Assembly: GCF_002786325.1 (NCBI RefSeq)
Contig: NZ_PGTB01000026.1
Location: forward strand, 1 to 39,463
From: Pseudooceanicola lipolyticus
Lineage (GTDB): Bacteria; Pseudomonadota; Alphaproteobacteria; Rhodobacterales; Rhodobacteraceae
DNA length: 39,463 nucleotides
Direction: 5' to 3'
The notes beneath the pieces were generated by a model. The model was not told where the DNA came from, ran no database searches, and saw only the letters and a program-made list of their open reading frames with translations. The first letter of the stretch is position 1, and every line of letters starts with the position of its first letter. This document shows, in pieces, positions 4,877-19,622 of this stretch. The position numbers and the translations under genes were made by a program.

Positions 4877-6175
4877 TCAGCCGTGGGCGAATGCCTCGCG
4901 CTCAGACACCGTGAAATTGCCCGTGGCGTCAAATTCTGCGGCGCGGGCCGGGCCAAGCACCTCCAATGCGTCACTGGCCTCGACCTCCGGCAAAAGCGCC
5001 TCGGACACGTGAATTTCCTCAAGATGAAGCGTATTGGGGACACGCACCATCCGCAGCTTTGACGGGTCCGGTGCGTTGCAGGTTTTTACCGCCATGCGCA
5101 TCGCGTCTCGGTCGTTTTCCATGATCACGGGGATGCGCGCGCCGGCCAGAACCGTCGAGGTGACGCAGTTGGCATAGGTTGCAATCAGGTCGATCTTGTC
5201 ATGCAAGCGCCGCGTGCAGATATCGGCGAGGCCAATGCCGGTGGCGTTACCGCTGCTGCTGTCCGTCAGGTCAAGAACGGCCATCTTGCCGACCTCCTGC
5301 GTGGTGTTGACATATGGGGTGCTGGCGCGTCCGGTGATGTTCGGGTCCATGCCGGTGCCCGAGAACTCCTTGCCCATGCGGTCGACGATGAGCACGTCCA
5401 GCGGGCGGAACAGAATACGCGGCATGCTGGCGCGCGCCTCTTTCAGCAGTTCGGGCTCGCGATCGAGAATGCGCTCGTTGCGCACCAGTTCCACGCGGGC
5501 GACACGGTCGTACCCGTTCTCGACAGTCGCTATGCCGAACAGAACTGGCGAATGGGCCAGCTTGAAACGCGCCATCTCCAGCACGTTCTCCGCCATCATG
5601 CCGAAGCCGTGAGCGTGGCAGCTTTCGGCGCCCTGCTGCTTGCCCAGCCCGATGGTGATCATCTTGGCCAGGCCGCTTTCGATCATGCCACTGAAACTGG
5701 TATGCGGCTTTACCCGGTTGATGACGACGATGCCGTCGGCCTGCATCGCTGCTTTGTCCATGAGGATGGGCAGTCCGTTCGGCAAGCTTCCGAGTTTCAC
5801 CGTGTCCATGGACGACCTAATCGGGCACCCCGCGCTTGCCTCGGTGACGCCCAGCTTGGCCAACAGCGCCTGCTGTCCTTCCGCGGTGGCGCCGCCATGG
5901 CTGCCCATGGCGGGAACGATAAAGGGCCGTGCCCCGAGCCGGAGCAGTTCCTCCACCGTGGTGCGCACGAGGACGGGCAGGTCCGCCAGACCGCGACTGC
6001 CAACACCGATGGCGATCGTCATACCCTTGCGAACCAGCGCTGCATTGCCTGGCTTGGCGAACTCTGCGCGCACCGCGGCAGCAACATCGCGGACCGCATC
6101 GTCGGGAAAGATCTGACGGACGGGCGCCATCCGAGGCAGGTCAACGGTTGTCAGGAATTGCTCAATAACGGACAT
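4877..6175 (-). CDS. LarA-family (DUF2088) nickel-pincer racemase/epimerase, substrate unknown
   Basis: A 432-residue homologue of LarA, the lactate racemase that uses a nickel-pincer nucleotide tethered to a lysine to move a hydride at C2 of a 2-hydroxy acid. Candidate active-site residues are visible: His93 in AMGSHGG and His158 in RVKPHTSF (LarA catalytic bases His108/His174), Lys171 in ESGLAKM (cofactor lysine 184) and His187 in SCHAHGF (nickel ligand 200). The Lys-to-His spacing of 16 equals that of LarA; the His158-to-Lys171 spacing (13) is longer. The N-terminal acidic D..TR motif of true lactate racemases reads GVGSRGLAD (57-65), suggesting another substrate. It is the last gene of the transporter/regulator unit, 19 bases after gntR, and the divergent arm carries larC, larE and larB. 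Not a plain lactate racemase, in my judgement. Confidence 0.85.
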   Translation of the reverse strand: MSVIEQFLTTVDLPRMAPVRQIFPDDAVRDVAAAVRAEFAKPGNAALVRKGMTIAIGVGSRGLADLPVLVRTTVEELLRLGARPFIVPAMGSHGGATAEGQQALLAKLGVTEASAGCPIRSSMDTVKLGSLPNGLPILMDKAAMQADGIVVINRVKPHTSFSGMIESGLAKMITIGLGKQQGAESCHAHGFGMMAENVLEMARFKLAHSPVLFGIATVENGYDRVARVELVRNERILDREPELLKEARASMPRILFRPLDVLIVDRMGKEFSGTGMDPNITGRASTPYVNTTQEVGKMAVLDLTDSSSGNATGIGLADICTRRLHDKIDLIATYANCVTSTVLAGARIPVIMENDRDAMRMAVKTCNAPDPSKLRMVRVPNTLHLEEIHVSEALLPEVEASDALEVLGPARAAEFDATGNFTVSEREAFAHG

Positions 6176-6194
6176 CGGGGAGGCTCCTAATTGC

Positions 6195-6953
6195 CTAGTC
6201 GAACCGCGACTGCCAGGTCGCGATATAGCGGTTCTTGGCCGGGGTAAGGTGATCGCGACACAGCGTCACCAGCCGCTCTCTGTCCCCTGCACGGCAGGCC
6301 TCGACCATGGCGCGATGCTCATCCGCCGCCCATTGCAGCGCCTCAAGCTCGGAGGTGAAGATCGAGCGGTAAGCGTGACTCTTCTGGGCGAAGATCTCGA
6401 TCGCCTCAATGAGCGCCTCATTGGCACAATGGCGGAAGAGTTCGCGGTGAAACGCGATATTGGCGTAGAACACCTTGCGCTTGTCCCTTTCGACGATGCC
6501 CTCGGCGTGGCGCGCCTGCAGCGCCTCCAGCTCTGCAAGGGCGTTCGCGTCGAGGGGGAAAGGAATGAGTTCGGCCGCCTTGACCTCAAGCAACTCGCGA
6601 ACGGCGTGGATATCGTTGACTTCCCGCGGGCTGTACAGGCGGACCATTGCCCCACGGTTGCGGATCCGCTCAACCAGCCCCAGCCGTTCCAACTCGATGA
6701 TCGCCTGCCGTGCGAGGTAGCGCTTGATCCCGAAACGCTCGGCGATCTCGTCCTCGACCAGCCTCTGGCGGGGCTGCAACTGGCAAAAGACGATTTCCTC
6801 TTCCAAGAGTTGGGTAATGCTGCGCACCACCTCCTCGGCGTTCTTGCCGGCGACCAGATCAGCCTTTTTCACCTCGAACCCCTTCCACTTTGCAACGGGC
6901 CACGTTCCGGTGGCGTTTTCGGAGGGGTCCATCTCCGGATCGGGCGATGTCAT
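6195..6953 (-). CDS. GntR-family transcriptional regulator, FCD (FadR-like) type
   Basis: A 252-residue DNA-binding regulator. A winged helix-turn-helix lies at about residues 38-108 (EDEIAERFGIKRYLARQAIIELERLGLVERIRNRGAMV). It is followed by an all-helical FCD effector domain (about 112-245) with the usual acidic/His metal-binding pattern (DIHAVRELLE, FHRELF, DEHRAM). FCD regulators typically repress carboxylic-acid catabolic genes and release DNA when the acid binds. The ATG at 6953 lies 2 bases past the tctA stop, and the longer frame runs back inside tctA, so this start is chosen. About 35 residues precede the wing domain, a little more than usual. Probable target: the palindromes at 10070-10103 between the two arms of the island. 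Confidence 0.9.
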   Translation of the reverse strand: MTSPDPEMDPSENATGTWPVAKWKGFEVKKADLVAGKNAEEVVRSITQLLEEEIVFCQLQPRQRLVEDEIAERFGIKRYLARQAIIELERLGLVERIRNRGAMVRLYSPREVNDIHAVRELLEVKAAELIPFPLDANALAELEALQARHAEGIVERDKRKVFYANIAFHRELFRHCANEALIEAIEIFAQKSHAYRSIFTSELEALQWAADEHRAMVEACRAGDRERLVTLCRDHLTPAKNRYIATWQSRFD

Positions 6954-6955
6954 TG

Positions 6956-8494
6956 TCAAGTATTCCCCGCGTCCTTTTCCATTTCTGGCAGGCCACGCGA
7001 GCGACGGATCGCCCGGCCGAGCCAGCCGAAAAACGGGGTGGCCTGCAGGACCGAAAGCGCTGCGATGGTCAGCAGCACGGCTGCAATCGGGCTCTGAAGG
7101 AAGATGGTCCAGTCGCCCCGTCCGATCAGCAGGCTTTGCTCGAGGCTGGTGTCCAGCACCGAGCCCAGAATCAGGCCGATCACCAGCGGCGGCGTCGGGA
7201 TCCGACAGGCATCCAGCACGTAGCCGAATAGCCCGAAACCCAGCATGAGCCATATCTCGAAGATCGAATTGTTCAGCGCGTAGGCACCGATGATGGACAG
7301 GACAACGATCACCGGGCCGACGACGCGGTTCGGGATCTTGGTAACCGAGACGCAGGCGCGGGTGAAAAGCAGGCCAACGGCGAACAGTGCGACGTTGGCG
7401 AAGAGCACCGCCCAGAGCAGGGTGTACGTGACGTCGCCGTAATCGGTCATCAGGGTGGGTCCGGGCAAGATGCCGTGTACCATAAGCCCCCCCATGAGCA
7501 CCGCGGTGGAGGATGAACCGGGGATGCCGAGCGAGATGGTGGGGATCAGCGCACCGCCGACAACGGCGTTGTTGGCCGCTTCCGGCGCCACGATGCCCGG
7601 AGCATATCCCTTGCCGAACTCTGCCTTGTTGCGCGAGAAACGCTTTGCCTCATTGTAGGCGAACCAAGAGGCGGTATCGCCCCCGGTGCCCGGGATCAGC
7701 CCCGTGAACACCCCGATGACGGCGGAACGCAGGCTGTTGGGCAGCATGGCGAGGAAATCCCGCGCCGACGGCAGCATCCGGTCGCGCACGCTGGAAATGC
7801 GCCCAGACACATCTGTGTTCCCCCTCGTCATCAGCCGGATGGCCTGGGGGATGGAAAACAGCCCGATCAGCGCCACGGTGAACTCGACACCACCAAAGAG
7901 GTTGAGGTTGCCAAAAGTGAACCGCGGCGTTCCGGTGGTCGGGTCCATGCCGATCATGGCAATCAAGAGCCCAATCGCGCCCGACAACAGCCCCAGCAGC
8001 GCAGAGCCTTGCGACAGCGAGCCGATGATGGTGATGCCGAGCACGGCAATTGCAAAGATCTCGACCGGGCCGAAATTCAGCACCAGTTGACCCAGAAGCG
8101 GTGCAACGGTCAGCAGCACAATTGAAGACAGGACCCCGCCGACCAGAGAAGCCGAGAGCGAAAACCCAAGCGCTTTCCCGGCCTTGCCGGCCTGTGCCAT
8201 CGGGTAGCCGTCGATCACCGTTGCCGCTGCCGCGGGCGTGCCCGGCGTGCGCAGCAGGATCGCGGCGATCGAACCGCCGTACATGGCCGAGAGGTAGAGC
8301 GACGCCAGGAGAGCAAGTCCGGTGGCCGGCTCGAACTGGAAAGTCAGCGGCAAGAGCAGCGCGATCGCCATCGTGGCCGAGAGACCGGGCATCGCGCCAA
8401 CGAACATGCCGATCAGGGTCCCGAGGACGATGACGAAAATATTGATCGGCTGCACCACATTGGTAAGTCCGATCCACAGGAAAGTGTCGTTCAC
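6956..8494 (-). CDS. tctA: Tripartite tricarboxylate transporter, large permease TctA
   Basis: A 512-residue integral membrane protein with around eleven hydrophobic segments. Family signatures include VGAMPGLSATMAIALLLPLT near residues 32-51 and the second-half block GLIPGTGGDTASWFAYNEAK. It is the main channel subunit of the TTT family, which imports carboxylic acids with an external binding protein (TctC) and a small subunit (TctB), driven by an ion gradient. Order on the strand is tctC, tctB (12 bases upstream), tctA, then gntR (2 bases downstream), a typical operon. Substrate unknown; the adjacent racemase and dehydratases suggest a hydroxy or sugar acid. Confidence 0.93.
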   Translation of the reverse strand: MNDTFLWIGLTNVVQPINIFVIVLGTLIGMFVGAMPGLSATMAIALLLPLTFQFEPATGLALLASLYLSAMYGGSIAAILLRTPGTPAAAATVIDGYPMAQAGKAGKALGFSLSASLVGGVLSSIVLLTVAPLLGQLVLNFGPVEIFAIAVLGITIIGSLSQGSALLGLLSGAIGLLIAMIGMDPTTGTPRFTFGNLNLFGGVEFTVALIGLFSIPQAIRLMTRGNTDVSGRISSVRDRMLPSARDFLAMLPNSLRSAVIGVFTGLIPGTGGDTASWFAYNEAKRFSRNKAEFGKGYAPGIVAPEAANNAVVGGALIPTISLGIPGSSSTAVLMGGLMVHGILPGPTLMTDYGDVTYTLLWAVLFANVALFAVGLLFTRACVSVTKIPNRVVGPVIVVLSIIGAYALNNSIFEIWLMLGFGLFGYVLDACRIPTPPLVIGLILGSVLDTSLEQSLLIGRGDWTIFLQSPIAAVLLTIAALSVLQATPFFGWLGRAIRRSRGLPEMEKDAGNT

Positions 8495-8506: not shown

Positions 8507-8953
8507 TTATGCACCGGGAAAAAGCGGCATCGGCAATCCGAGAAAGTTGATGAAGACCGCCCAGATCACGCCGGTCACGGCGATCACGGTCAGCAAGATG
8601 TTCGGCCAGCTGATCGGACGAAGTGCGCCGAGCGCGACAAGCAGGAAAACCGGCGTGGCGATCAGGTAGCCAAGCACATGGATCGAAGCGGCATAGGCGA
8701 CGCAAAGGGCGGCAAACAGAACTCCGATTCCGAAGGCGGTCTTGTCGATGGGTGGCACAAGTTGCAATTGTCCATCTGCGCTTTGACGCCGCCATTCCAA
8801 GGCCTGAGCCACGATGACTGCCGTTCCCAGCAGGATGATGATCAATCCCAGCAGGTTCGGAAGGCGGGCTGCGGCAGAAGGATAGCTCTGCGCGGTATGG
8901 CGAAAGAACAGGGCCAGCGCGACCGCTGCGGAAGCCACGAGAATTCGTCCCAT
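8507..8953 (-). CDS. tctB: Tripartite tricarboxylate transporter, small subunit TctB
   Basis: A 148-residue membrane protein with four hydrophobic segments (MGRILVASAAVALALFF; LLGLIIILLGTAVIVAQAL; FGIGVLFAALCVAYAASI, continuing into a hydrophobic stretch; ILLTVIAVTGVIWAVFINF), as in TctB. An upstream in-frame TTG at 8965 is rejected because the bases TTGGAG there provide the Shine-Dalgarno sequence for the ATG at 8953. The sequence is poorly conserved in this family, so the call rests on size, topology and the position between tctC and tctA. Confidence 0.88.
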   Translation of the reverse strand: MGRILVASAAVALALFFRHTAQSYPSAAARLPNLLGLIIILLGTAVIVAQALEWRRQSADGQLQLVPPIDKTAFGIGVLFAALCVAYAASIHVLGYLIATPVFLLVALGALRPISWPNILLTVIAVTGVIWAVFINFLGLPMPLFPGA

Positions 8954-9032: not shown

Positions 9033-10013
9033 TCAGTTTGACTGAACTTCGTCTTTCACTTCGTTCCAGATGTCGGTGAAGGTCTTTTCCTGCTCCTGCA
9101 GGAAGGCCGTGTAGTCATTGCCCCCGATGAAGTCGATGTTCATCGCATGGGCCGCCGCGGCCGCCTTGAAATCGGGGTTCTCGGTCACCCGCCGCAGTCC
9201 GTCGACCAGCTGGGCACGGGCCTCGTCCGGGAAACCTGCCGGGGCGCTGTAGCCACGCGAGGAGCCGGCCACCACGTCGAAACCCAGTTCCTTCGCCGTC
9301 GGAACATCGGGCAGTTCCGGCAGACGCTCGTTTGCAAAGACGACCAGCGCGCGCAGGTTGCCCGCCTTTATCTGCGGGTAGGTGATGCCGACATTATTGA
9401 AGCTGGCGTCAATTTGACCGCCCATCGCGGCCGTCCAGGACGGACCGTCACCCTGGAACGGCACCTTTTGGAACTTGATGTCCGCAGCGCGCTCGAAGGC
9501 CACGGTGGTGAAAAAGTCGTCACCACCGATGCCAGAGTTGCCGACCGTGATCGCGCCCGGATCGGCCTTGGCCGCCTCCAGAAGATCCGCAAAGCTTTGG
9601 TAGGGGCTGTCAGCGGCCACCACGGCGATGCCCGGATCGGTGACGATGTTGGCAATCGGTGTCAGCTCGGAAATGTTGTAGGTGATGCTTTCGTTCATGA
9701 TGTAGTTGGTCATCAGCATCGGCGTGTTGGTGATGCTGATGGTTTCACCGTCGGGCTTGACCTGCTTGGCGAGGCGCGTCCAAGCAATCGCCCCGGTGGC
9801 ACCCGGCATATATTGATTAACGAAAGACACGCCCAGCTCGTCGGCGAGGAATGGCTGCACAAGCTGCGCCAGCGCGTCCGAACCGCCACCCGCCTTAAAG
9901 CCCATCAGCACGGTGACCTCTTCGGCCGCATCGTAGCCCTGCGCGGTGGCGCCAAAGGGAACCGATAGCGTCATCGCGACCCCAAGAGCCGCAACAAAAG
10001 ATCTTCTCTTCAT
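9033..10013 (-). CDS. tctC: Tripartite tricarboxylate transporter, periplasmic binding protein TctC
   Basis: A 326-residue secreted solute-binding protein of the Bug/TctC family. The N-terminus is a signal peptide (MKRRSFVAALGVAMTLSVPF, cleavage likely after ATAQ at 25). The mature part has family features: VLMGFKAGGGSDALAQLVQPFL, a P-G-A-T-G loop (residues about 69-73, binding the carboxylate in known structures), ITVGNSGIGGDDF, and the late RLPELPDVPTAKELGFD. A good ribosome-binding site (GGGAGG) precedes the ATG at 10013. It is first in the minus-strand unit of the island and so is controlled from the divergent region 10014-10165. Confidence 0.92.
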   Translation of the reverse strand: MKRRSFVAALGVAMTLSVPFGATAQGYDAAEEVTVLMGFKAGGGSDALAQLVQPFLADELGVSFVNQYMPGATGAIAWTRLAKQVKPDGETISITNTPMLMTNYIMNESITYNISELTPIANIVTDPGIAVVAADSPYQSFADLLEAAKADPGAITVGNSGIGGDDFFTTVAFERAADIKFQKVPFQGDGPSWTAAMGGQIDASFNNVGITYPQIKAGNLRALVVFANERLPELPDVPTAKELGFDVVAGSSRGYSAPAGFPDEARAQLVDGLRRVTENPDFKAAAAAHAMNIDFIGGNDYTAFLQEQEKTFTDIWNEVKDEVQSN

Positions 10014-10165: not shown

Positions 10166-11899
10166 ATGGCCGAGAATGGCAATGCGCCCAAGGGAATGCG
10201 CAAGGGGCTGACAAGCTATGGCGACGCGGGCTTTTCGCTCTTTCTGCGCAAGGCCTTCATCAAGGGGATGGGGTACAGCGACTCGGCTCTGGACCGGCCG
10301 ATCATCGGCATTGTCGACACCGGCAGCGACTACAATGCCTGCCACGGCAACATGCGAGATCTTGTCGAGGCGACCAAGCGCGGCGTGATGCTGGCGGGGG
10401 GGCTGCCGATTCCCTTTCCGACGATCTCGATCCACGAATCCTTTTCGCATCCGACCAGCATGTATCTGCGCAACTTGATGGCGATGGACACCGAGGAAAT
10501 GATCCGCGCCCAACCGATGGATGCGGTGGTGATGATCGGCGGCTGCGACAAGACGGTGCCGGCCCAGCTGATGGGCGCAGCTTCGGCAAACCTGCCGGCA
10601 ATCCAGCTGGTCACCGGCCCGATGCGTACGGGCAGCCATCGCGGCGAGACCGTGGGCGCCTGTACCGACTGTCGCCGCTTTTGGGGCCGCTTCCGCGCGG
10701 GCGAAATCGACGATCAGGAAATCGCGGAAGTGAATGACCAGCTTGTGCCTGGGACCGGCACCTGCGGTGTTATGGGCACCGCCTCCACAATGGCGCTGGT
10801 GACCGAGGCGCTCGGCATGATGGCCCCCGGCGGGGCCACAGCGCCCGCCGTCTCTGCCGACCGTCGGCGCATTGCCGAGCGTTCCGGCGAGATCGCCGTG
10901 CAGATGGCGGCGTCGGGGCTGACGCCCGACCGGATCATGACCGAGGAGGCGTTCGAAAACGCACTGAAGGTGCTTCTGGCCATCGGCGGCTCGACCAACG
11001 CCATTATCCACCTTACCGCCGTCGCCGGACGTTTGGGTATCCGCCTCGACCTCGACCGGTTTGACGCCATGGGGCGCGATATCCCGGTCCTGGTGGATCT
11101 CAAGCCCTCGGGCACTCAGTACATGGAAGACCTGCATGACGCAGGCGGGCTGGTCACGGTGTTGCGCGAACTGCGCCCCCACCTGAACCTGGATTGCGTG
11201 ACCGTCACCGGCCGCACCCTGGGCGAAGAGATCGACCTGGCGCCCGCAGGCTTTGCGCAAGACGTTGTTGCCGGCAACGAGGCACCGCTGTTTGCCGAGG
11301 GCGGCATGGCGGTGCTGCGCGGTAATCTCGCGCCGCGCGGGGCCATCATCAAACAGTCTGCGGCAACTCCCGATCTGATGGTGCATCGCGGGCGCGCGGT
11401 CGTTTTCAGTTCGATCGAGGATCTGACGCGGCGGGTGGACCTGCCTGAACTTGACGTGAAAAAGGACGACATCCTGGTGTTGCAGAACGCCGGACCCAAA
11501 GGCGCGCCAGGCATGCCCGAGGCCGGCTATATGCCCATACCCCGCAAATTGGCCGCGCAAGGCGTGAAGGACATGGTGCGGATATCCGACGCCCGCATGA
11601 GCGGCACCGCGAGCGGCACCATCGTGCTGCATGTGACGCCGGAATCCGCCAGCGGCGGACCTCTGGGTCTGGTGCGCGACGGCGACGAGATTGAACTGAA
11701 TGTACCCGAGCGCACGATCACGCTGCATGTGGACGAGGCCGAACTGGCCGAACGGCGCAAAGGCATGAAGGCACCGGTGCATCCGGGGTCCGACCGCGGA
11801 TATCGCAAACTGTTTCTTGAAACGGTGACCGAGGCCGACCTCGGTTGCGACTTCGACTTCCTCGTACCGCAGGCGCAGTCGGAATCGCCCGAGTCCTGA
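10166..11899 (+). CDS. IlvD/Edd-family sugar-acid dehydratase (L-arabonate/xylonate dehydratase-like)
   Basis: A 577-residue Fe-S dehydratase that would remove water from C2-C3 of a polyhydroxy acid to give a 2-keto-3-deoxy acid. The cluster cysteines are Cys59 (DYNACHGN), Cys127 (GGCDKT) and Cys200 (GTGTCGVMGTAST). To my knowledge this spacing is that of the [2Fe-2S] L-arabinonate and D-xylonate dehydratases, which are also close in length. Lys129 in CDKT fits the carbamylated Mg2+-binding lysine, and SDARMSGTASGTIVLHVTPE near residues 476-495 is the catalytic-serine region. ATG 10166 with AGGGAG upstream is preferred over the upstream TTG at 10070, which would read through the operator. First gene of the plus-strand arm. 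A branched-chain (IlvD) role is unlikely in this context. Confidence 0.9.
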   Translation: MAENGNAPKGMRKGLTSYGDAGFSLFLRKAFIKGMGYSDSALDRPIIGIVDTGSDYNACHGNMRDLVEATKRGVMLAGGLPIPFPTISIHESFSHPTSMYLRNLMAMDTEEMIRAQPMDAVVMIGGCDKTVPAQLMGAASANLPAIQLVTGPMRTGSHRGETVGACTDCRRFWGRFRAGEIDDQEIAEVNDQLVPGTGTCGVMGTASTMALVTEALGMMAPGGATAPAVSADRRRIAERSGEIAVQMAASGLTPDRIMTEEAFENALKVLLAIGGSTNAIIHLTAVAGRLGIRLDLDRFDAMGRDIPVLVDLKPSGTQYMEDLHDAGGLVTVLRELRPHLNLDCVTVTGRTLGEEIDLAPAGFAQDVVAGNEAPLFAEGGMAVLRGNLAPRGAIIKQSAATPDLMVHRGRAVVFSSIEDLTRRVDLPELDVKKDDILVLQNAGPKGAPGMPEAGYMPIPRKLAAQGVKDMVRISDARMSGTASGTIVLHVTPESASGGPLGLVRDGDEIELNVPERTITLHVDEAELAERRKGMKAPVHPGSDRGYRKLFLETVTEADLGCDFDFLVPQAQSESPES

Positions 11900-11901
11900 G
11901 C

Positions 11902-12942
11902 ATGCAGGTCCCCCACCCTGCCCTGCTCCGCTTTGCCACTGACCGGCTTACCGCCTCCGGGATGTGCCCGGAGTTTGCCAAGACCGTGGCCGAGACGTTG
12001 GTGGAAGGGGATCTTCTGGGTCATGGCACCCACGGCCTGGCGCTGCTGCCGCGCTACCTGCAGGAGCTGGAACGCGGCCAAATGGCCCGTGAAGGGAAGT
12101 GGACGGTGACATCGCGCGCGGCGTCGGTCGCCGAACGATGGGACGGCAATTGGCTGCCCGGTCCGGTGCTGGTCAAAGCCGCCATCGACCGCTGTGCCGC
12201 GATTGCTTCGCGCCAAGGGATGGGAGCGGTTGCCATTGCCCGGAGCCATCACATCGCCTGCTTGGCGGCCTATCTGCAGGCCGTCACGCAGCGGGGGCTG
12301 GCCGTGATCATCGCCTCGTCGTCTCCGTCCAATCGGCAGGTGGCGCCGCACGGAGCGATCACAGGCGTCTATTCGCCCAACCCGATCGCCGCGGGCTGGC
12401 CAACCGGGGGCGACCCTGTGCTGTTGGATGTGTCCATGTCGATCACCACCAGCGGATTGGTCTCAGCCATGGCCGCAGAGGGGCGGTCCATGCCCGGGGC
12501 ATGGCTGGTGGATAAAGACGGTCAGGCGACGGACGATGCCACCGTCATCGGGTCCGGCAACGGCGCACTTCTGCCGGTTGGCGGGCAGGATCACGGGCAC
12601 AAGGGCTTCGCACTTGGTCTGCTGGTGGAGATGCTGACCACGGGCCTCGCCGGCCACGGGCGGGCGGAGGGCACAGATCGTTGGGGCGCCTCGGTCTTCG
12701 TATTGGTGCTGGACCCTGAGCATTTCGGCGGGCTGGAAGCGTTCAACCTCCAGGCGGGCTGGATCGCCGCTGCCTGCCGCGGCGCAAGCGTGATCGACGG
12801 CACGCCAGCGGTTCGGTTGCCCGGCGAACGCGCGCTGGCCCGGCGCGAAGAGAATTTGCACAATGGAGTGGCCCTTGCACCCGACCTGCTCGCGGTGCTG
12901 CAGAAGATGGGCTTGGGGAGCGAGGAGGAGGTGAGCAAATGA
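11902..12942 (+). CDS. Ldh2-family NAD(P)-dependent 2-hydroxyacid dehydrogenase
   Basis: A 346-residue member of the malate/L-lactate/sulfolactate/ureidoglycolate dehydrogenase family (type-2 Ldh, not Rossmann-fold). Family blocks are GDLLGHGTHGLALLPRY (residues about 36-52), VAIARSHHIACL, a region around YSPNPIAAGWPT, DVSMSITTSG and GHKGFALGLLVEMLT. These enzymes interconvert a 2-hydroxy acid and its 2-keto acid. It begins 2 bases after the dehydratase stop and its own stop overlaps the next start by 4 bases, so it is embedded in the operon. A racemase feeding the enantiomer this dehydrogenase can use is an attractive reading, but the substrate is not readable. Confidence 0.9.
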   Translation: MQVPHPALLRFATDRLTASGMCPEFAKTVAETLVEGDLLGHGTHGLALLPRYLQELERGQMAREGKWTVTSRAASVAERWDGNWLPGPVLVKAAIDRCAAIASRQGMGAVAIARSHHIACLAAYLQAVTQRGLAVIIASSSPSNRQVAPHGAITGVYSPNPIAAGWPTGGDPVLLDVSMSITTSGLVSAMAAEGRSMPGAWLVDKDGQATDDATVIGSGNGALLPVGGQDHGHKGFALGLLVEMLTTGLAGHGRAEGTDRWGASVFVLVLDPEHFGGLEAFNLQAGWIAAACRGASVIDGTPAVRLPGERALARREENLHNGVALAPDLLAVLQKMGLGSEEEVSK

Positions 12943-14486
12943 CACAATCCATGGAAAAGGTCCGGCGTGGTCCGGCAATCCGTCTGCATCAGGACGACAA
13001 TGTGGTGATCGCCTATCGCGAGATCGCGCCAAAGACGGAAATTCCCGGCGAAGGGGTGACCACCAACACGCCGGTCCCGGCGGGCTACAAGATCGCGACC
13101 CGTGCGATCTCCAAGGGCGAACCGATTCGGAAATACAATGTAACCATCGGCTTCGCAGCCAAGGACATCCGGCCCGGTTCGATGCTGCACAGCCACAACA
13201 TCGAATTCCGGGAATTCGACCGCGACCCCCGCCACGCAACCGAATACCAGCCGGTGATCCCGGTCCCGGAGGAGGACCGAGCGGTGTTTCAGGGCATCCT
13301 GCGCCCCGACGGCCGCGTTGGCACCCGCAACTATGTGGGCATCCTGTCCTCGGTGAACTGTTCTGCCACGGTGGTGCGCAGGATCGCCGATTTCTTCACC
13401 CCCGAGAGGCTGGCCGAATATCCCAATATCGACGGGGTCGTGGCGTTCACGCATGGGCTGGGCTGCGGCATGGAAATGTCGGGCGAGCCGATGGATCTGC
13501 TGCGCCGGACCATCGGGGGCTTTGCCACCCATGCCAACCTGGCCGCCGCGGTCCTTATCGGACTGGGATGCGAAAGGAACCAGATCCCGGCGCTGATGAA
13601 GCAGAACGGGCTGACCGAGGGGCCGAAGCTGCTGAACCTGGTGATGCAGGAGATGGGCGGAACCCGGAAGACCATCGAGGCGGGAATTGCCGCGGTCCAG
13701 GAGATGTTGCCCGAGGCGAACCGCGTGGTGCGGCAACCGGTCCCGGCCAGCCACCTGAAGGTGGGGCTGCAATGCGGCGGCTCGGACGGGTTTTCCTCGA
13801 TTACGGCCAACCCCGCCCTCGGTCATGCCGTTTCGATCCTGGCACGCCACGGGGGCACTGGCATCCTGTCCGAAACGCCGGAGATCTATGGTGTCGAACA
13901 TACCCTGACCCGGCGCGCACGGTCGGTCGAGGTGGGCGAGAAGCTGCTCCAGCGCATCCGCTGGTGGAAAGACGAGTATTCCCCCGGCCGCGACGTTCAG
14001 ATCAACGGGGTCGTGAGCCCCGGCAACCAGATGGGCGGGCTGGCGAACATCTTCGAGAAATCGCTGGGTTCGTCGATGAAAGGCGGAACCGGGCCGTTGA
14101 TGGATGTCTATCGCTACGCCGAGCCGGTTACCGCCAGCGGCTTGGTTTTCATGGACACGCCGGGTTACGATCCGGTCTCGGCCACCGGCCAGATCGCCGG
14201 GGGGGCCAACTTGATCTGCTTTACCACCGGGCGCGGGTCCATGTTCGGGGCCAAACCGGTACCATCGATCAAGATCGCCACCAATACGCCCATGTATAGG
14301 CGCCTGACCGAGGACATGGATGTGAATGCCGGTGTCATCCTCGACGGCGAGGCGACGCTGGAGGAAACCGGTGAATTGATTTTCCGCAAGATGCTCGAAA
14401 CCGCGTCGGGCACCCGGACCAAGAGTGAAGAACTGGGACTTGGCGACAACGAGTTCGTGCCCTGGAGCATCGGGATCATGAGTTGA
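12939..14486 (+). CDS. UxaA-family dehydratase (altronate/galactarate dehydratase-like), full length
   Basis: A 515-residue protein joining an N-terminal SAF domain (about 1-100, with VPAGYKIATRAISKGEPIRK) and the catalytic UxaA domain. Signatures are GILRPDGRVGTRNYVGIL, FTHGLGCGMEM, LGCERNQIPAL, LQCGGSDGFSSITANPALG, SPGNQMGGLANIFEKSLG and TPGYDPVSATGQIAGGANLI. The family dehydrates altronate, galactarate and related acids, and one branch (SuyAB) releases sulfite from sulfolactate. The closest textual resemblance is to altronate-type full-length enzymes. The ATG overlaps the preceding stop (ATGA). It is odd to find a second, unrelated dehydratase in the same operon as an IlvD/Edd enzyme; they may act on two epimers or on successive intermediates. 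Confidence 0.88.
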   Translation: MTQSMEKVRRGPAIRLHQDDNVVIAYREIAPKTEIPGEGVTTNTPVPAGYKIATRAISKGEPIRKYNVTIGFAAKDIRPGSMLHSHNIEFREFDRDPRHATEYQPVIPVPEEDRAVFQGILRPDGRVGTRNYVGILSSVNCSATVVRRIADFFTPERLAEYPNIDGVVAFTHGLGCGMEMSGEPMDLLRRTIGGFATHANLAAAVLIGLGCERNQIPALMKQNGLTEGPKLLNLVMQEMGGTRKTIEAGIAAVQEMLPEANRVVRQPVPASHLKVGLQCGGSDGFSSITANPALGHAVSILARHGGTGILSETPEIYGVEHTLTRRARSVEVGEKLLQRIRWWKDEYSPGRDVQINGVVSPGNQMGGLANIFEKSLGSSMKGGTGPLMDVYRYAEPVTASGLVFMDTPGYDPVSATGQIAGGANLICFTTGRGSMFGAKPVPSIKIATNTPMYRRLTEDMDVNAGVILDGEATLEETGELIFRKMLETASGTRTKSEELGLGDNEFVPWSIGIMS

Positions 14487-14523
14487 CGCGTCGCACCGCG
14501 CGTTTGGGGAGGTGAGGACACAG

Positions 14524-14589
14524 ATGATATCACTGCGACAAAACTCAGAGCGATGGACGGTGGGCCGCGACCAACGGGCGGCGCCATGA
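14524..14589 (+). CDS. 21-codon ORF coupled to larC (possible leader peptide)
   Basis: An ATG at 14524 is preceded by an excellent Shine-Dalgarno sequence (GGGAGGTGA, 8 bases upstream) and encodes 21 residues starting MISLRQNSERW. Its TGA overlaps the larC ATG in an ATGA junction at 14586. larC itself has no good Shine-Dalgarno sequence (the bases before it are GGGCGGCGCC). I infer that translation of this short frame delivers ribosomes to larC. The peptide has no recognisable domain and might be only a coupling device. Confidence 0.55.
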   Translation: MISLRQNSERWTVGRDQRAAP

Positions 14590-15698
14590 CCGGGCATGCC
14601 CATCTTGACCTGGTGGGCGGGATATCGGGCGATATGTTCGCGGCCTCGATGCTCTCCGCATTTCCCGGCACGCGGGACCAGCTGGAACACGATCTGTCCG
14701 ACGCGGGCCTGACCGAGTGGGTCACCCTTCGCGTGTGCGAGGTGCGAAAGTCCGGTTTTGCCGCAACCCAGGTTGGGTTCGAGATCACGCCGGGCGCCCC
14801 GCCGACCCGGCACTGGAAGGATATCCGCGCAAGACTGCACGGATCCGCCTTGCGGCCCGCCGTCCGAGCCGCCGCAATCGACATCTTCTCCGGCCTCGCA
14901 GAGGCGGAGGCCGCCAGTCACGGAATTCCGGTCGACAAGGTCCATTTTCACGAGATCGCGGACTGGGACTCGATGGCCGACATTGTCGCCGCCGCCTCGC
15001 TGATCGTCAGCACGAAGATCGCCAGCTGGTCCTGCTCTGACCTGCCTCTGGGGCGCGGACGCGTACAGACCCAGCACGGGCTGATCCCGGTGCCGGCGCC
15101 GGCGACGGCCCATTTGCTGTCAGGCTTCCGTTTCGCCGATGACGGCGGGGAAGGCGAGCGCATCACCCCGACCGGCGCCGCGATCCTCCGCCATCTCCTC
15201 CCGTCCCAGGATGGCCGCCAGGCTGGCCTGAAGCTGAGCGGTATCGGCACCGGTGCCGGGCAGCGCGAAATGAAGGGGATCCCCAATCTCTGTCGGCTGA
15301 TGTATTTCGAAACCGCCTCTGCAGCGGCAGACCTGGTGGGCAGCCTTGCTTTCGAGATCGACGACATGACCGCCGAGGAGCTGACGGCCGCCCTGGACCG
15401 TATTCGAACCAGTCGCGGGGTGCTCGATGCCGGTTACACCACCGGCTATGGCAAACAATCGCGGAGCCGTCACACTGTCACGGTCCTGGTCGAGCCAGCC
15501 CGCACCGACGAGGTTGTCGATCTGTGTTTGCGGGAAACCAGCACCATCGGCCTGAGGATCGGGAGCGTCCGACGTCGGGTTCTGCGGTGCGAGGCAAGCT
15601 TGGGCGGCGGGCTGCGCGCCCCGACCGTGCACCGGCCGGATGGCGCCACCGCAAAGGTCGCGCGAGACGAACCGGTCGGGGTGGGCGGTGATGAATAA
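14586..15698 (+). CDS. larC: Nickel-pincer cofactor nickel-insertion protein LarC
   Basis: A 370-residue LarC, the CTP-dependent cyclometallase that inserts nickel into the pincer nucleotide needed by LarA enzymes. Signatures are HLDLVGGISGDMFAASML at the N-terminus, VHFHEIADWDSMADIVAAAS (the His-rich conserved helix), CSDLPLGRGRVQTQHG, ITPTGAAILRHL, and the C-terminal FEIDDMTAEELTAALD with GYTTGYGKQSR. It is one continuous frame, unlike Lactobacillus plantarum larC, which is expressed by frameshift. At 370 residues it is somewhat shorter than the usual 400 or so, the shortfall being at the C-terminus. The start matches the family's normal N-terminus; it overlaps the 21-codon ORF and, downstream, larE by 8 bases. 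Confidence 0.92.
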   Translation: MTGHAHLDLVGGISGDMFAASMLSAFPGTRDQLEHDLSDAGLTEWVTLRVCEVRKSGFAATQVGFEITPGAPPTRHWKDIRARLHGSALRPAVRAAAIDIFSGLAEAEAASHGIPVDKVHFHEIADWDSMADIVAAASLIVSTKIASWSCSDLPLGRGRVQTQHGLIPVPAPATAHLLSGFRFADDGGEGERITPTGAAILRHLLPSQDGRQAGLKLSGIGTGAGQREMKGIPNLCRLMYFETASAAADLVGSLAFEIDDMTAEELTAALDRIRTSRGVLDAGYTTGYGKQSRSRHTVTVLVEPARTDEVVDLCLRETSTIGLRIGSVRRRVLRCEASLGGGLRAPTVHRPDGATAKVARDEPVGVGGDE

Positions 15699-16464
15699 TC
15701 CTGCGGCCGCGTTGCGCGAGGTCCTGGCTCGACATGGGGACCTAACCTTTGCCGTCAGCGGCGGCGTGGACAGCCTGACGCTTGCGGCCTTCGCCGGGCG
15801 CCTCGGGCCGGTCACGGTGGCACATGCGGTATCCCCGGCCGTTCCGAAGGAAGCGACGACGCGGGTGCTCGAGTTGGCCCGGGCGGAAAACTGGACGCTA
15901 CACGTGATCGAGGCTGGGGAATTCGCGGATCCTGACTATCTGCGCAACCCGCTGAACCGCTGCTATTTCTGCAAGTCGAACCTTTATGCCCGCATTCAGC
16001 AAGTGGTTCCGGGCCTCATCGCTGCGGGGACCAACACGGATGACCTGTCCGAGTTTCGTCCGGGGCTTCTTGCCGCGCGGGAGAACCGGGTGGTTCATCC
16101 CTACGTCGATGCGGGCCTGTCCAAGGCCGACCTGCGCCGGCTGTCCGCCGAAATCGGCCTAGGCGAGATCGCCGAACTGCCCGCACAGCCCTGCCTGGCC
16201 AGTCGGGTAGAGACCGGCATCCCGATCCGCGCCGACGACCTGGCGTTCATTCACCGTGTCGAAAGCACGCTGCGCGAATTTACCGATATTCCGGACCTGC
16301 GCTGCCGCGTGACCCGCAGCGGCATCCGCCTGGAAGCCGGCGGAGCGTTGCCCGCCGCCGCGACGGCGCGGATCGCCGCGATGTGCCGGGAGAGCGGCCG
16401 CATCTTCGCTGGGGTTGCCGCCTATCGACGCGGCAGCGCCTTCGTGGCACCGGAGCCGTCATGA
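15691..16464 (+). CDS. larE: Pyridinium-dicarboxylate sulfur transferase LarE
   Basis: A 257-residue ATP pyrophosphatase of the LarE family, which adenylates and sulfurates the carboxylates of the pincer precursor. The PP-loop is SGGVDSL (23-29). Cys91 and Cys94 lie in NRCYFCKSNLY, and Cys168 in PAQPCLASRVETG corresponds to the cysteine whose sulfur is sacrificed in L. plantarum LarE (Cys176). Having all three cysteines suggests the [4Fe-4S]-carrying LarE type, which can act catalytically; that distinction is my inference. The ATG at 15691 is chosen because it gives the normal N-terminus; upstream in-frame sequence lies inside larC. The stop overlaps the larB start (ATGA). Confidence 0.92.
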   Translation: MNNPAAALREVLARHGDLTFAVSGGVDSLTLAAFAGRLGPVTVAHAVSPAVPKEATTRVLELARAENWTLHVIEAGEFADPDYLRNPLNRCYFCKSNLYARIQQVVPGLIAAGTNTDDLSEFRPGLLAARENRVVHPYVDAGLSKADLRRLSAEIGLGEIAELPAQPCLASRVETGIPIRADDLAFIHRVESTLREFTDIPDLRCRVTRSGIRLEAGGALPAAATARIAAMCRESGRIFAGVAAYRRGSAFVAPEPS

Positions 16465-17138
16465 CCATTTCCCACACCGTGATCGACTGGGATCGGACCG
16501 CGCGCACCGGCGTGCCCGAAGTGGTGTTGGCCCCGTCCAAGACCAGCCACCAGCTCCGCGACATTGTCGAGGCTCACCAGGCGCGGGCGGTGCCTCTGCT
16601 GCTGACACGCCTGACGGATGGCCAGCTCGCCGATCTGGCGGATCTGCCGCTGGATCTCGACCCATTGGCGCGGACCGGCAGCCTGTTGGCGCCGGACATA
16701 CCTGCGGATGCACAGCGGCTCGGGATCGTGACAGCCGGCACGTCGGATTTGCCCGTGGCACTGGAGGCTTATCACACCGCCCGGTTTCTTGGCCTCGACA
16801 CAACGCTTTTCACCGATCTGGGCGTGGCCGGCCTCTGGCGGTTGCAGGATCGCCTTGAGGAGATCTCGGGTTTTCCACTGCTGATCGCCGTCGCCGGAAT
16901 GGAGGGCGCGTTGTTTTCCGTCCTCGCCGGGCTGGTCCGCGCACCCGTGATCGCAGTGCCAACCTCGGTCGGCTACGGCATGTCGGAGGGTGGCAAGGCG
17001 GCACTGTCCTCGGCGCTGGCCAGCTGCGCACCAGGCATCGTCACGGTCAATATAGACAATGGCTTCGGTGCGGCGGCGGCGGCGCGGAAGATGCTTCCGC
17101 CGTCGCGCACTGCGCTCAGGCCGGTTTCAACGCCCTGA
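16461..17138 (+). CDS. larB: Nicotinate-nucleotide carboxylase/hydrolase LarB
   Basis: A 225-residue LarB, which carboxylates nicotinic acid adenine dinucleotide and cleaves it to start pincer synthesis. The N-terminal IDWDRTARTGVPEVVLAPSKT (residues about 8-28) is the family opening. An AIR-carboxylase-like domain follows (IVTAGTSDLPVALEAYHTARFLG, then APVIAVPTSVGYGMSEGG and CAPGIVTVNIDNGFGAA). It is slightly shorter than the usual 250 residues. The gene order larC-larE-larB completes a full cofactor pathway next to the LarA-like gene, with ATGA coupling to larE. The last 23 bases overlap the 3' end of the convergent lysR gene. Confidence 0.93.
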   Translation: MTISHTVIDWDRTARTGVPEVVLAPSKTSHQLRDIVEAHQARAVPLLLTRLTDGQLADLADLPLDLDPLARTGSLLAPDIPADAQRLGIVTAGTSDLPVALEAYHTARFLGLDTTLFTDLGVAGLWRLQDRLEEISGFPLLIAVAGMEGALFSVLAGLVRAPVIAVPTSVGYGMSEGGKAALSSALASCAPGIVTVNIDNGFGAAAAARKMLPPSRTALRPVSTP

Positions 17139-18006
17139 GCTCGGCATCCGCCATTTCCGCCAGCACCCGAACGAGGTGGGTGCGCGGTGCATTGCGCGGA
17201 TAGAGCAGCCCGATCCCCCGCGATGGTGCCGAGGCCGGCAGGGACAGAGTGCGCACGCGGTTCCGCTCGGGCCGCGGCCCGGCCCAGTCGGGCACAACCG
17301 CCACCCCCAGCCCCTTGCCGACCAGGACCGCGATGGCATCCAGCGCGTCCAACTCAAACCGGACATCTGGTTCGGTCACACTGGTCTCGATCCACTGCTT
17401 CGCCAGACGCCCGCCCCATTGTCCGCGGTCATATAGGATCAGCGGCGAAGTGGCGAGAATCTCCAGCACATCGGTCCTCGTCTCTTCCGGCGGCACCATC
17501 AGCACGAAGCGCTCGCGCCGCCAGAGGGAGAACTCCATCGATTTTGACAGAGCAAATTCCGGCGCAACAAGTATCGCAGCATCAATGGCGCCGTCCTCGA
17601 CCCGTGAAAACAGGTCTGCCGAGGTGCCGGGAACGAGGTGCAGGCGCAAATTCGGATAGGTGCGGATGCTGACTTCCAGAACCGATGGCAAGAGACCGGT
17701 CAACGCCGTCGCAATCGCACCGATGCGCAGTTCGCCCGCAATCGCCGAGCCGCTGGCGGCAGAGCGCAGGTCACGCAGCCCCGACAGCACTTCGGGAAGC
17801 TGTTCCAGCACCGCATGCCCGGCCGCCGTGGGGCGCACCACACGTCCCGACCGGGCAACCAACGCGGTACAGAACTCCTCCTCCAGCGCGCGCAGGCGCA
17901 GCGCCACGGCATTCGCGGTAAGGCCCAGTTCCCGCGCCGCAGCAGCCATCGAGCCCTGTCGGGCGACGATCTGGAAAGTCAACAGATTGTCGGTGTCCAA
18001 ACCCAA
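17116..18006 (-). CDS. LysR-family transcriptional regulator
   Basis: A 296-residue LysR protein. The N-terminal helix-turn-helix (about 1-62) reads NLLTFQIVARQGSMAAAARELGLTANAVALRLRALEEE, followed by a substrate-binding effector domain (about 90-290). No in-frame ATG exists before an upstream stop, so TTG is used, at 18006 (with GAAGG five bases upstream) or at 18000. It is divergent from the SDR gene (intergenic 92 bases), and its 3' end overlaps larB in convergent orientation. Probably controls the SDR/RraA pair, and perhaps the larger island alongside the GntR protein; its effector is unknown. Confidence 0.88.
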   Translation of the reverse strand: MGLDTDNLLTFQIVARQGSMAAAARELGLTANAVALRLRALEEEFCTALVARSGRVVRPTAAGHAVLEQLPEVLSGLRDLRSAASGSAIAGELRIGAIATALTGLLPSVLEVSIRTYPNLRLHLVPGTSADLFSRVEDGAIDAAILVAPEFALSKSMEFSLWRRERFVLMVPPEETRTDVLEILATSPLILYDRGQWGGRLAKQWIETSVTEPDVRFELDALDAIAVLVGKGLGVAVVPDWAGPRPERNRVRTLSLPASAPSRGIGLLYPRNAPRTHLVRVLAEMADAELRALKPA

Positions 18007-18054: not shown

Positions 18055-18098
18055 TAATCGGTTAGCTAGTGCCTCATATCTGCAGGAGGGACGAAAGA

Positions 18099-18884
18099 AT
18101 GGATTTGGGTCTGAACGGACGCGTCGCGCTGGTTCTGGGAGGCGGCGGCGGATTGGGCAGTGCCATCGCCCAGAGCCTGGCAGCCGAAGGCAGCTTGGTT
18201 GCTGCAGCCGATATCGACAAGTCCGCCGCCGATGCCACCGCGGCGGCCATCGCCGCGAAGGGTGGCACCGCCACCGCCATGGCGTGGGACCTGGCCGAGA
18301 TCGAGGCCGTGGATGCCAATGTCACCAAGGTCGAAGCGGAGTTGGGCCCGGTTGATATTCTCGTCGCGATCACCGGTGGCCCGCCGCCGGGCACCGCCCA
18401 TGGGCAGTCGGTGGACACATGGCGGACGTTCTTCGACTCGATGATCGTCTCGGTGATGGCAATCTCCGACAGGGTTCTGCCGGGCATGCGCGCCCGCAAC
18501 TGGGGTCGGATCATCACTTCGACCTCCTCGGGCGTCGTTGCGCCAATCCCGAACCTGGGCATCTCCAACGCTCTGCGCCTGTCGCTGGTTGGCTGGTCAA
18601 AAACCGTCGCCGCAGAGGTGGGTAAAGACGGCGTGACCTGCAACGTGGTGATGCCGGGCCGCATCGCCACGCAGCGTATTTCCTTTCTCGACGAGAAGAA
18701 GGCCGAGCGCGAGCAACGCAGCGTAGACGAGGTGCGCGCCGACAGCCTCGCGATGATCCCCATGGGCCGCTACGGCGACCCGTCAGAATATGCCGATATG
18801 GTGGCCTTCCTTGCCTCGGACAGGGCAGGCTACATCACCGGATCGCAGATCCGGATCGACGGCGGCTATATCCCCAGCATCTGA
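18099..18884 (+). CDS. Divergent short-chain dehydrogenase/reductase-like protein
   Basis: A 261-residue Rossmann-fold SDR. The nucleotide-binding glycine motif is GGGGGLGSA (14-22) and the C-terminal block GSQIRIDGGYI is typical. Two canonical sites differ: the NAG motif reads ITGGPPPGT (91-99), and the catalytic YxxxK position reads SNALR (156-160). A divergent SDR subfamily shares this TGGPP/SNALR pattern, so the change is probably ancestral rather than decay, but ordinary Tyr-Lys catalysis is not possible. The start at 18099 follows AGGAGGG. RraA-like protein is encoded 18 bases downstream. Role in the island: oxidoreductase or possibly a non-redox step. Confidence 0.85.
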   Translation: MDLGLNGRVALVLGGGGGLGSAIAQSLAAEGSLVAAADIDKSAADATAAAIAAKGGTATAMAWDLAEIEAVDANVTKVEAELGPVDILVAITGGPPPGTAHGQSVDTWRTFFDSMIVSVMAISDRVLPGMRARNWGRIITSTSSGVVAPIPNLGISNALRLSLVGWSKTVAAEVGKDGVTCNVVMPGRIATQRISFLDEKKAEREQRSVDEVRADSLAMIPMGRYGDPSEYADMVAFLASDRAGYITGSQIRIDGGYIPSI

Positions 18885-18902
18885 GCCAAAGGACCTTACA
18901 GA

Positions 18903-19622
18903 ATGACCGAGACAAATGTCACCCTCGACGCCGAAGCCATCGCGATCCTGCGCGGTGTCACCACCGCCACCCTGACCACGATCCTGCTGAAGAAGGGCCT
19001 GCGCAACGTTTGGATTCGCGGCGGCATGCCGCTGCGGCCGGAACAGGAGCGCGTGGTGGGCCCGGCCTTTACCTTTCGCTTCGTGCCGGCCCGCGAAGAC
19101 CTCGCGACACCGGCAAGCTGGGGCAGCCCGATTTCGACCCGCGCCGCGATCGAGGCGATGCCCGAGGGCGCCTTTGCCGTCATCGACGCGATGGGATTTC
19201 AGGATGCCGGCGTGTTCGGTGACATCCTGTGCGCGCGTATGGTCAAGCGCGGCGCGGTCGGCCTTGTCACCGACGGGGTCGTGCGCGATCTCGACGGTGT
19301 ACTGGGCACCGGGCTGCCGGTTTGGGCGCGCGGAACGGCGGCGCCCCCATCGGTGGCCGGGCTCACCTTTGTCGGCTGGGAAGAAACCGTCGGCTGTGGT
19401 GGCGTCTGCATCATCCCGGGCGATACCATCGTCGCGGACAAGGACGGCGCTGTGGTAATCCCCGCGGCCTATCTCGGCGACATCTTGAAGGAAGCCCCGG
19501 AACAGGAGCGCATGGAAGGCTGGATCGTGAATGAAGTCGAGAATGACGCGAAACTGCCCGGGCTCTACCCGATGAACGAGGCCACCCGCGCCCGATACGA
19601 CGACTGGCGGAAGGACAATTAA
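18903..19622 (+). CDS. RraA/HMG-aldolase family protein
   Basis: A 239-residue member of the RraA-like family. Members include 4-hydroxy-4-methyl-2-oxoglutarate/oxaloacetate aldolases that cleave 2-keto acids to pyruvate. The metal and pyruvate site is seen as GVFGDILCARMVKRGAVGLVTDG (103-125) with VVRD (126-129), giving Asp107, Asp124, Arg128 and Asp129. Later, GCGGVCIIPGDTIVADKDGAVVIP is the family's usual C-terminal block. True RNase E inhibitor RraA proteins are about 160 residues, so the longer length and catabolic setting favour an aldolase or lyase. It would fit a last step releasing pyruvate from a 4-hydroxy-2-keto acid. Confidence 0.85.
   Translation: MTETNVTLDAEAIAILRGVTTATLTTILLKKGLRNVWIRGGMPLRPEQERVVGPAFTFRFVPAREDLATPASWGSPISTRAAIEAMPEGAFAVIDAMGFQDAGVFGDILCARMVKRGAVGLVTDGVVRDLDGVLGTGLPVWARGTAAPPSVAGLTFVGWEETVGCGGVCIIPGDTIVADKDGAVVIPAAYLGDILKEAPEQERMEGWIVNEVENDAKLPGLYPMNEATRARYDDWRKDN

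Follow-up and report, generated by a model that had tools for sequence, protein, structure and literature searches.

The 39,463-nucleotide stretch of Pseudooceanicola lipolyticus DNA analysed here (the window) carries, at positions 4877–19622, an island of 14 intact reading frames in which a LarA homologue of nickel-pincer nucleotide (NPN)-dependent isomerase group 22 is joined to two unrelated dehydratases of the IlvD/Edd and UxaA/GarD families. Judged from its sequence, the island is real, conserved and functionally coherent, and all of its parts come from known families; what appears new is the assembly of non-phosphorylative sugar-acid catabolism round this nickel-pincer group. We consider that the island probably serves the catabolism of a polyhydroxy (sugar) acid via C2 epimerisation and two complementary dehydratases, and a C4–C6 aldonate or aldarate may be the substrate class. 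The original prediction of a self-contained nickel-pincer catabolic island is supported in part: a LarA class for which no assayed member was found in the open-access literature stands with its own cofactor genes, an importer and two dehydratases, and within its clade it shows a link to IlvD and UxaA.

Conservation of the island and linkage to dehydratases

All fourteen genes recur in the same order in G937, a single-contig genome from another genus of the same family, with 59–91% identity over the matched stretches (LarA 77%, IlvD 90%, UxaA 91%, Ldh2 71%, TctA 88%, TctC 86%, the short-chain dehydrogenase/reductase (SDR) 85%, and RraA 90%). Because the fourteen genes keep their order in another genus, the arrangement is not the product of chance. 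A Loktanella plasmid carries GntR-TctABC // IlvD-Ldh2-DHDPS-UxaA-LarA-hypothetical-LarB-LarC-LarE (DHDPS, dihydrodipicolinate synthase family), and no LysR, SDR, or RraA gene was seen at that locus.

A group-22 gene is carried by 7 of 295 genomes sampled from the family, 11 of 385 sampled from the class and 3 of 398 sampled from the phylum, each count including the window's own genome. The 34 loci examined comprise 21 from sampled genomes, one Paracoccus contig and 12 chosen from 114 matching plasmid records. Among these records, 47 belong to Pseudosulfitobacter, those listed being near one length and identity, and one was taken; L047 and L059 are near copies. Additionally, a contig scan with one LarA sequence returned a single locus (L003, Paracoccus), and a scan of viral contigs returned no relative.

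The loci fall into six context types, plus three haloarchaeal loci and a mixed rest. In type A (the window, G937, and Loktanella), a tripartite tricarboxylate transporter (TTT), IlvD, Ldh2, UxaA, and LarA occur together. Type B comprises Sulfitobacter and Pseudosulfitobacter plasmids and L021, with IlvD and DHDPS and, in some, RraA, HpcH, and aldehyde dehydrogenase; on the plasmids of both genera, UxaA adjoins LarA and the IlvD and DHDPS genes lie close by, and the two Sulfitobacter plasmids also carry RraA. The IlvD of L046, also of type B, is an L-arabinonate dehydratase equivalog (1096 bits; cut-off 882), and a KdgD-like DHDPS in a related cluster reaches 145 of 278 bits. Type C (Roseicitreum, G159, and G175) has the order IlvD-LarA-Gfo-GMC-aldehyde dehydrogenase. 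Type D combines TRAP-LarA with annotated 2-keto-3-deoxygalactonate (KDGal) kinase, 2-dehydro-3-deoxy-6-phosphogalactonate aldolase (256 bits; cut-off 207), RraA-like, and D-2-hydroxyacid dehydrogenase genes, in G007 partly from extended DNA. Type E (Sporomusa) has an enolase-family galactonate-dehydratase-like gene (257 of 311 bits), TTT, LarA, and a split UxaA, and type F (Paenibacillus and Niallia) has the glucuronate isomerase gene uxaC near LarA. Moreover, L042, from another family in the phylum, holds LarA and lar genes with IlvD, RraA, HpcH, and a distant UxaA piece (39%). In the LarA tree, each context type of at least two rows forms one group, untyped rows being uncounted and the mixed "other" set being the exception. 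A group of ten rows (support 99/93) contains the window together with types A, B, and E; 7 of the 10 have two dehydratase families, and L003, L021, and L025 do not.

Three dehydratase families (IlvD, UxaA, and mandelate racemase/muconate-lactonizing enzyme, MR/MLE) were searched as a panel up to 10 kb from LarA or as far as the fetched DNA reached. The control came from two single-contig genomes only and consisted of 40 stretches of 20 kb at even spacing, with the LarA neighbourhood left out. IlvD was present at 11 of the 34 loci versus 1 of the 40 control stretches (Fisher p 0.0005), and UxaA at 9/34 versus 0/40 (p 0.0005). At least one of the three families occurred at 15/34 loci versus 2/40 (p 0.00007), and two unrelated dehydratase families at 10/34 versus 0/40 (p 0.0002). 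At the edge of L054, an annotated enolase-family gene was left uncounted by the panel.

Several observations weigh against a general link between LarA and these dehydratases. The Fisher p values overstate it, the 34 rows being related and the panel drawn partly from the test loci. Eleven loci of other alphaproteobacterial families have no panel dehydratase, apart from one weak enolase match, and no nearby lar genes; three of them (L029, L032, and L033) have less than 2 kb of DNA on one side. By Pfam, 20 neighbour proteins of seven of these loci (L033, L035, L036, and L038 being left out) are CoA-type or other, and L033 has TctA- and TctC-like neighbours. Among the family-sampled genomes, UxaA lies within 10 kb at only 1 of 8 group-22 loci and IlvD at 4 of 8. 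A UxaA gene occurs somewhere in all seven LarA-bearing genomes of that sample and also in 153 of the 295 overall; among the matches listed, a UxaA more than 59% identical to that of the window was found in its own genome only. Furthermore, UxaA, IlvD, DHDPS, and RraA modules also occur without LarA in the fetched DNA. L003, inside the window's LarA clade, has lar genes but no IlvD or UxaA, and both are also missing at L025, a member of the wider clade of ten rows. The predicted co-conservation of LarA with the dehydratases thus stands in the window's clade and fails in other parts of group 22, as at the 11 loci. Group 22 as a whole does not show the link to sugar-acid dehydratases, which is confined to the part that includes the window and to a few other branches.

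Several loci merit separate description. At L028–L031, from other alphaproteobacteria, LarA lies among CoA-transferase, acyl-CoA dehydrogenase, thiolase, 2-hydroxyglutaryl-CoA-dehydratase-like, or HpcH genes, a context hinting at a different substrate, though one NCBIfam equivalog model covers those LarA genes. L021 (G000:C403:44500-64400) holds the second group-22 LarA of the window's genome, with LarC, LarE, DHDPS, an IlvD 91% identical to an L-arabinonate dehydratase equivalog, a TAXI/TRAP importer, a thiamine pyrophosphate enzyme, and a GlcD-like FAD oxidase; no UxaA was seen near it. Among L053, L022, L023, and L024, an annotated KDGal kinase and a phosphogalactonate aldolase stand beside LarA in three of four, the kinase of L024 being found only in the extension L092. 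No panel dehydratase occurs in the fetched DNA of these four loci, extensions included, and the dehydrating enzyme may lie elsewhere or be of an unrecognised kind. The gene at L053:15541-16542 encodes a D-2-hydroxyacid dehydrogenase, and the "Ldh2" panel matches in L023, L090, and L092 are likewise not Ldh2. On the haloarchaeal plasmid L056, three UxaA-family and two enolase-family genes surround the group-22 LarA. Between LarA and LarB, L045:15359-16744 encodes a 461-aa protein that matches neither Pfam (at E 1e-5) nor NCBIfam (at 1e-20), and a 51% relative of it lies near UxaA in L062.

Class and residues of the LarA homologue

The window's protein matches the group-22 model NF052515, as do all 22 aligned relatives, which reach other LarA models at E 4e-10 or weaker only. 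It scores 21.4 bits for NF052595 (cut-off 462) and 31.3 bits for NF052593 (cut-off 500), so that both malate racemase thresholds (LarAH5/LarAH6) are missed; clustering of the protein with characterised lactate or malate racemases, and of the other genes with an unrelated, described pathway, had been named as an outcome that would overturn the prediction and was not observed. Similarly, one further group-22 gene scores 532 bits for group 22 versus 32 of 500 for the malate type and 20 of 540 for the LarAH10 type, and is probably neither.

Membership of the LarA superfamily was judged by an Arg, two catalytic His, a Lys for NPN, and a His for nickel. R61, H93, H158, K171, and H187 are invariant in 34/34 group-22 sequences and include the cofactor lysine (K171) and three histidines (H93, H158, and H187) proposed at the outset. 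In an alignment to PDB 2yjg, H93, H158, and K171 pair with LarA residues, while R61 and H187 are assigned by spacing only. Their counterparts in LarA1, where they make up the cofactor and catalytic set, are R75, H108, H174, K184, and H200 (PMC11770544). A single-sequence PDB search reached LarA structures only at E 0.1–0.35, and a PDB search with a profile built from 22 group-22 sequences returned no LarA structure up to E 1. A structure predicted from the single LarA sequence had a mean predicted local distance difference test score of 31, was unusable, and was not used.

Desguin et al. 2020 sorted LarA homologues into 25 groups and tested 13 homologues, and the numbers given in the available text of that paper do not include 22 (PMC7583248). 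Neither "group 22" nor "LarAH22" occurs in the available text of PMC7583248 or PMC11770544, and "group 22" has no occurrence in the LarA superfamily papers found in the open-access literature.

Gene layout and partner enzymes

The window corresponds to contig C187 of a draft genome of 439 contigs with 5.7% contamination. The gene list proposed for the island proved correct: the frames are intact, and every named gene has a family match above a curated cut-off in Pfam or NCBIfam (Table 1). A minus-strand set runs from 10013 down to 4877 (TctC-TctB-TctA-GntR-LarA) and a plus-strand set from 10166 to 17138 (IlvD-Ldh2-UxaA-LarC-LarE-LarB), with a 152-base gap between the divergent starts of TctC and IlvD. 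From IlvD to LarB, the genes overlap or stand two bases apart, save for 99 bases from UxaA to LarC. Beyond LarB lies LysR on the minus strand, followed by SDR-RraA, plus and divergent from it. The regulators of the original prediction are present as GntR and LysR, and its two divergent units give way to two divergent pairs. TctA, TctB, and TctC form a complete TTT set, and LarB, LarE, and LarC all lie inside the island, each above its own cut-off.

Table 1. Genes of the island, with model scores and, in brackets, cut-offs
Feature	Position	Strand	Supporting matches
LarA homologue, NPN-dependent isomerase group 22, 432 aa	4877..6175	-	NF052515 556.1 bits (400); Lar_N 34.9 (23.3)
GntR/FCD transcriptional regulator	6195..6953	-	PF00392, PF07729
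TctA, large permease, TTT	6956..8494	-	PF01970 489 bits
TctB, small permease	8507..8953	-	PF07331 56 bits
TctC, periplasmic binding protein	9033..10013	-	PF03401 144 bits; PDB relatives include TTT binding proteins
IlvD/Edd-family dehydratase, PRK06131 subfamily, likely sugar-acid type	10166..11899	+	ILVD_EDD N + C; NF004784 849.5 bits (539)
Ldh2-family NAD(P)-dependent 2-hydroxy acid dehydrogenase	11902..12942	+	PF02615 271 bits
UxaA/GarD-family dehydratase, full length, 515 aa	12939..14486	+	PF04295, PF20629, SAF
LarC, nickel insertion	14586..15698	+	TIGR00299 179 bits (90); NF052512 73 (50)
LarE, sacrificial sulfur transferase	15691..16464	+	TIGR00268 224.6 bits (150)
LarB, NPN biosynthesis	16461..17138	+	NF033503 235 bits (175)
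LysR-family regulator	17116..18006	-	PF03466, PF00126
SDR-family dehydrogenase	18099..18884	+	PF13561 155 bits
RraA-family lyase, PRK08245 subfamily	18903..19622	+	PF03737 (RraA-like 104 bits); NF006093 325 bits (208)

For IlvD, the best PDB matches are 8ej0 and the L-arabinonate dehydratase 5j83/9evv; its 675 bits for the L-arabinonate dehydratase model NF009559 fall below the cut-off of 882, and it lacks the C-terminal His of RlArDHT. UxaA scores 364.7 bits for the galactarate dehydratase GarD model TIGR03248 (cut-off 730.85) and carries the iron-site cysteines C141, C176, C211, and C279, matched to the published four via a GarD (6u7l) alignment and spacing. Ldh2 reaches no NCBIfam equivalog cut-off, with 115.7 of 500 bits for the L-sulfolactate dehydrogenase model.

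RraA, aligned to 3noj, keeps the Arg-Asp pair (R123 and D124 of the P. putida aldolase) that is a feature of class II RraA-type aldolases (PMC5065237). Its relatives include 4-carboxy-4-hydroxy-2-oxoadipate (CHA) aldolase/oxaloacetate decarboxylase, and an RraA-family protein is also known as a 2-keto-3-deoxy-glucarate dehydratase/decarboxylase (PMC8563752). The predicted RraA-type aldolase fits the Arg-Asp pair and is qualified by that second activity and by the varied downstream genes of related islands (DHDPS family, HpcH, RraA, or KDGal kinase with aldolase); RraA may be an aldolase or, as another option, a dehydratase/decarboxylase. For the importer, sugar-acid uptake by a TTT is plausible because a TTT specific to alginate oligosaccharides has been published (PMC13390454).

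Proposed pathway

In the pathway that we propose, TctABC would import the sugar acid, LarB, LarE, and LarC would make the nickel-pincer cofactor carried by the group-22 LarA homologue, and this homologue would invert C2 via a transient 2-keto intermediate. IlvD and UxaA, as unrelated iron-dependent dehydratases of complementary C2/C3 preference, would remove water, and the isomers would converge on one 2-keto-3-deoxy acid because dehydration erases both the C2 and the C3 centres. SDR and/or Ldh2, together with RraA, would then convert this acid to pyruvate and a small aldehyde or acid. We infer the C2 epimerisation, the parallel use of the dehydratases, the last steps, and the order epimerise-dehydrate-oxidise-cleave.

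The complementarity of the two dehydratases is suggested by their published relatives. In Fischer projections, the UxaA substrate set has C2 left and C3 right, and the IlvD set has C2 right and C3 left. One UxaA-family enzyme converts D-arabinonate and has weak activity on D-altronate, L-fuconate, and L-galactonate, all with the same configuration at C2–C4; the D-idonate used by a relative of it agrees at C2 and C3 only (PMC6336799). Substrates of an IlvD sugar-acid dehydratase are D-fuconate, D-galactonate, L-arabinonate, D-gluconate, and D-xylonate (PMC11316719). 2-Keto-3-deoxy-D-galactonate (D-KDGal) is formed from D-idonate (PMC6336799) and also from D-galactonate, D-KDGal being the product of oxidation and dehydration of D-galactose (PMC11219438); UxaA and IlvD could yield one product in this way because both centres vanish on dehydration. 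A C2 epimerase would bring in the two remaining C2/C3 isomers. From the opposite C2/C3 preferences of the published relatives, parallel, stereo-complementary use of the two dehydratases is more likely than the sequential use first envisaged, and the parallel scheme would account for two unrelated dehydratases beside one epimerase better than a linear two-dehydration route.

A more specific form of this pathway is offered tentatively: as a stereochemical funnel, LarA might turn erythro into threo forms for UxaA or IlvD, making all four C2/C3 isomers usable. On thin support, LarA would here replace a third dehydratase, of the enolase family, that related clusters without LarA possess. An enolase-type gene is present in both fetched LarA-free loci that combine IlvD with a UxaA more than 70% identical to that of the window (L050 and L097, close relatives of each other) and in none of the three such loci with LarA (the window, L041 with extensions, and L045). 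The other LarA-free loci covered for this comparison, L051 and L098–L101, lack the UxaA/IlvD pair; L051 has the enolase type and L098–L101 do not.

Alternative explanations

The island might instead act on an aldarate (tartrate, pentarate, or hexarate) that TTT imports, LarA epimerises, UxaA and IlvD dehydrate, and RraA cleaves or decarboxylates, which we regard as fairly unlikely. TTT systems and GarD fit dicarboxylates. RraA relatives act as CHA aldolase/oxaloacetate decarboxylase and 2-keto-3-deoxy-glucarate dehydratase/decarboxylase (PMC8563752), and LarA homologues epimerise tartrate and, weakly, pentarates (PMC11770544); however, UxaA attains 365 of 731 bits for galactarate dehydratase, IlvD is nearest to aldonate-type dehydratases, and a TTT for alginate oligosaccharides has been published (PMC13390454). 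It is also doubtful that LarA serves Ldh2, by interconverting the C2 forms of a 2-hydroxy acid such that a stereospecific Ldh2 oxidises both to the 2-keto acid, with RraA cleaving this product and the dehydratases handling other compounds. Ldh2 does lie in the IlvD-UxaA unit of the window, G937, and Loktanella, and some KDGal kinase/aldolase clusters include a D-2-hydroxyacid dehydrogenase, with none of the panel dehydratases in their fetched DNA. In contrast, no Ldh2 was observed at the loci of Sulfitobacter, Roseicitreum, Sporomusa, and Paenibacillus, UxaA or IlvD adjoins LarA in the first three of these, and the window's Ldh2 falls below every NCBIfam equivalog cut-off.

There is only a small chance that the island is no more than two adjacent modules, GntR-TctABC-IlvD and a separate LarA-cofactor module of unrelated function. 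The 27 kb fetched from Roseivivax do contain GntR-TctABC//IlvD and no LarA, but LarA stands among such genes, variously arranged, in the window, Loktanella, Sulfitobacter, Roseicitreum, and Sporomusa, and the tree clades match the context types. A sulfolactate-type route, with TTT import, UxaA as SuyAB, Ldh2 as ComC, an SDR replacing SlcC, and LarA as racemase, is highly improbable. ComC belongs to the Ldh2 family, and a TTT serves the sulfolactate route. SlcC, ComC, and SuyAB form such a route (PMC12421959), yet the four cysteines lacking in SuyAB (PMC6336799) are all present in the window's UxaA. Moreover, this UxaA is one full-length chain, as opposed to the two-subunit SuyAB, Ldh2 scores far below the L-sulfolactate dehydrogenase cut-off, and IlvD would be left unexplained. 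The sulfolactate pathway was rejected on the four UxaA cysteines.

Neighbouring features of the window

Flanking the island lie genes for a Hint-domain protein (272-1327, minus strand), an LpxR-like outer membrane protein (1440-2474, minus), a MAPEG protein (2573-3160, plus), and a sigma factor with DUF6596 (3553-4782, plus). At 19804-22302 on the minus strand, the ribonucleotide reductase large subunit has a helix-turn-helix domain (residues 576-637) between its barrel and TSCPD domain. ARAGORN reports a 92-base tRNA-Pro at 35319-35410 (plus), which may be a false positive in coding sequence, and no Rfam family exceeds its gathering score in the window.

Comparison with known systems

Within the young superfamily of nickel-pincer enzymes, group 22 has a name but no assigned role, and its proposed coupling to stereo-complementary dehydratases points to a concrete class of substrates and a short list of assays. 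No paper joining a lactate racemase with these dehydratases was found in the open-access literature, in agreement with the original view that the combination of this epimerase with two dehydratases is not known as a described pathway. If the proposed pathway is true, a sugar-acid epimerase would be added to the nickel enzymes, and the bacterial use of rare diastereomers without an extra dehydratase would be explained.

The malate racemases LarAH5 and LarAH6 share the LarA superfamily with the window's protein and differ in that it scores 21 and 31 bits against their cut-offs of 462 and 500. The L-glucose pathway of Paracoccus epimerises by oxidation and reduction, not by LarA. It is similar to the island in having a UxaA/GarD-family D-idonate dehydratase that forms D-2-keto-3-deoxygalactonate (cited in PMC6336799). 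The GntE D-gluconate 2-epimerases (LarAH19, LarAH20, and LarAH15) would share NPN-dependent C2 epimerisation of a sugar acid with the window's LarA, if our reading is right, and the catalytic residue set is of the same kind. In contrast, the window's protein belongs to group 22. The usual GntE residues at the positions of LarA1 F175, F176, W358, and T359 are E, V, A, and H (PMC11770544), and at the first two of these, after H158, the window's protein has T159 (T in 29/34) and S160 (variable). Finally, the non-phosphorylative pentose and sugar-acid pathways of Herbaspirillum huttiense, for which the available text of PMC6336799 describes no LarA or nickel-pincer genes, resemble the island in their IlvD- and UxaA-type dehydratases, which lead to 2-keto-3-deoxy acids and then to a dehydrogenase and a lyase or hydrolase (PMC6336799).

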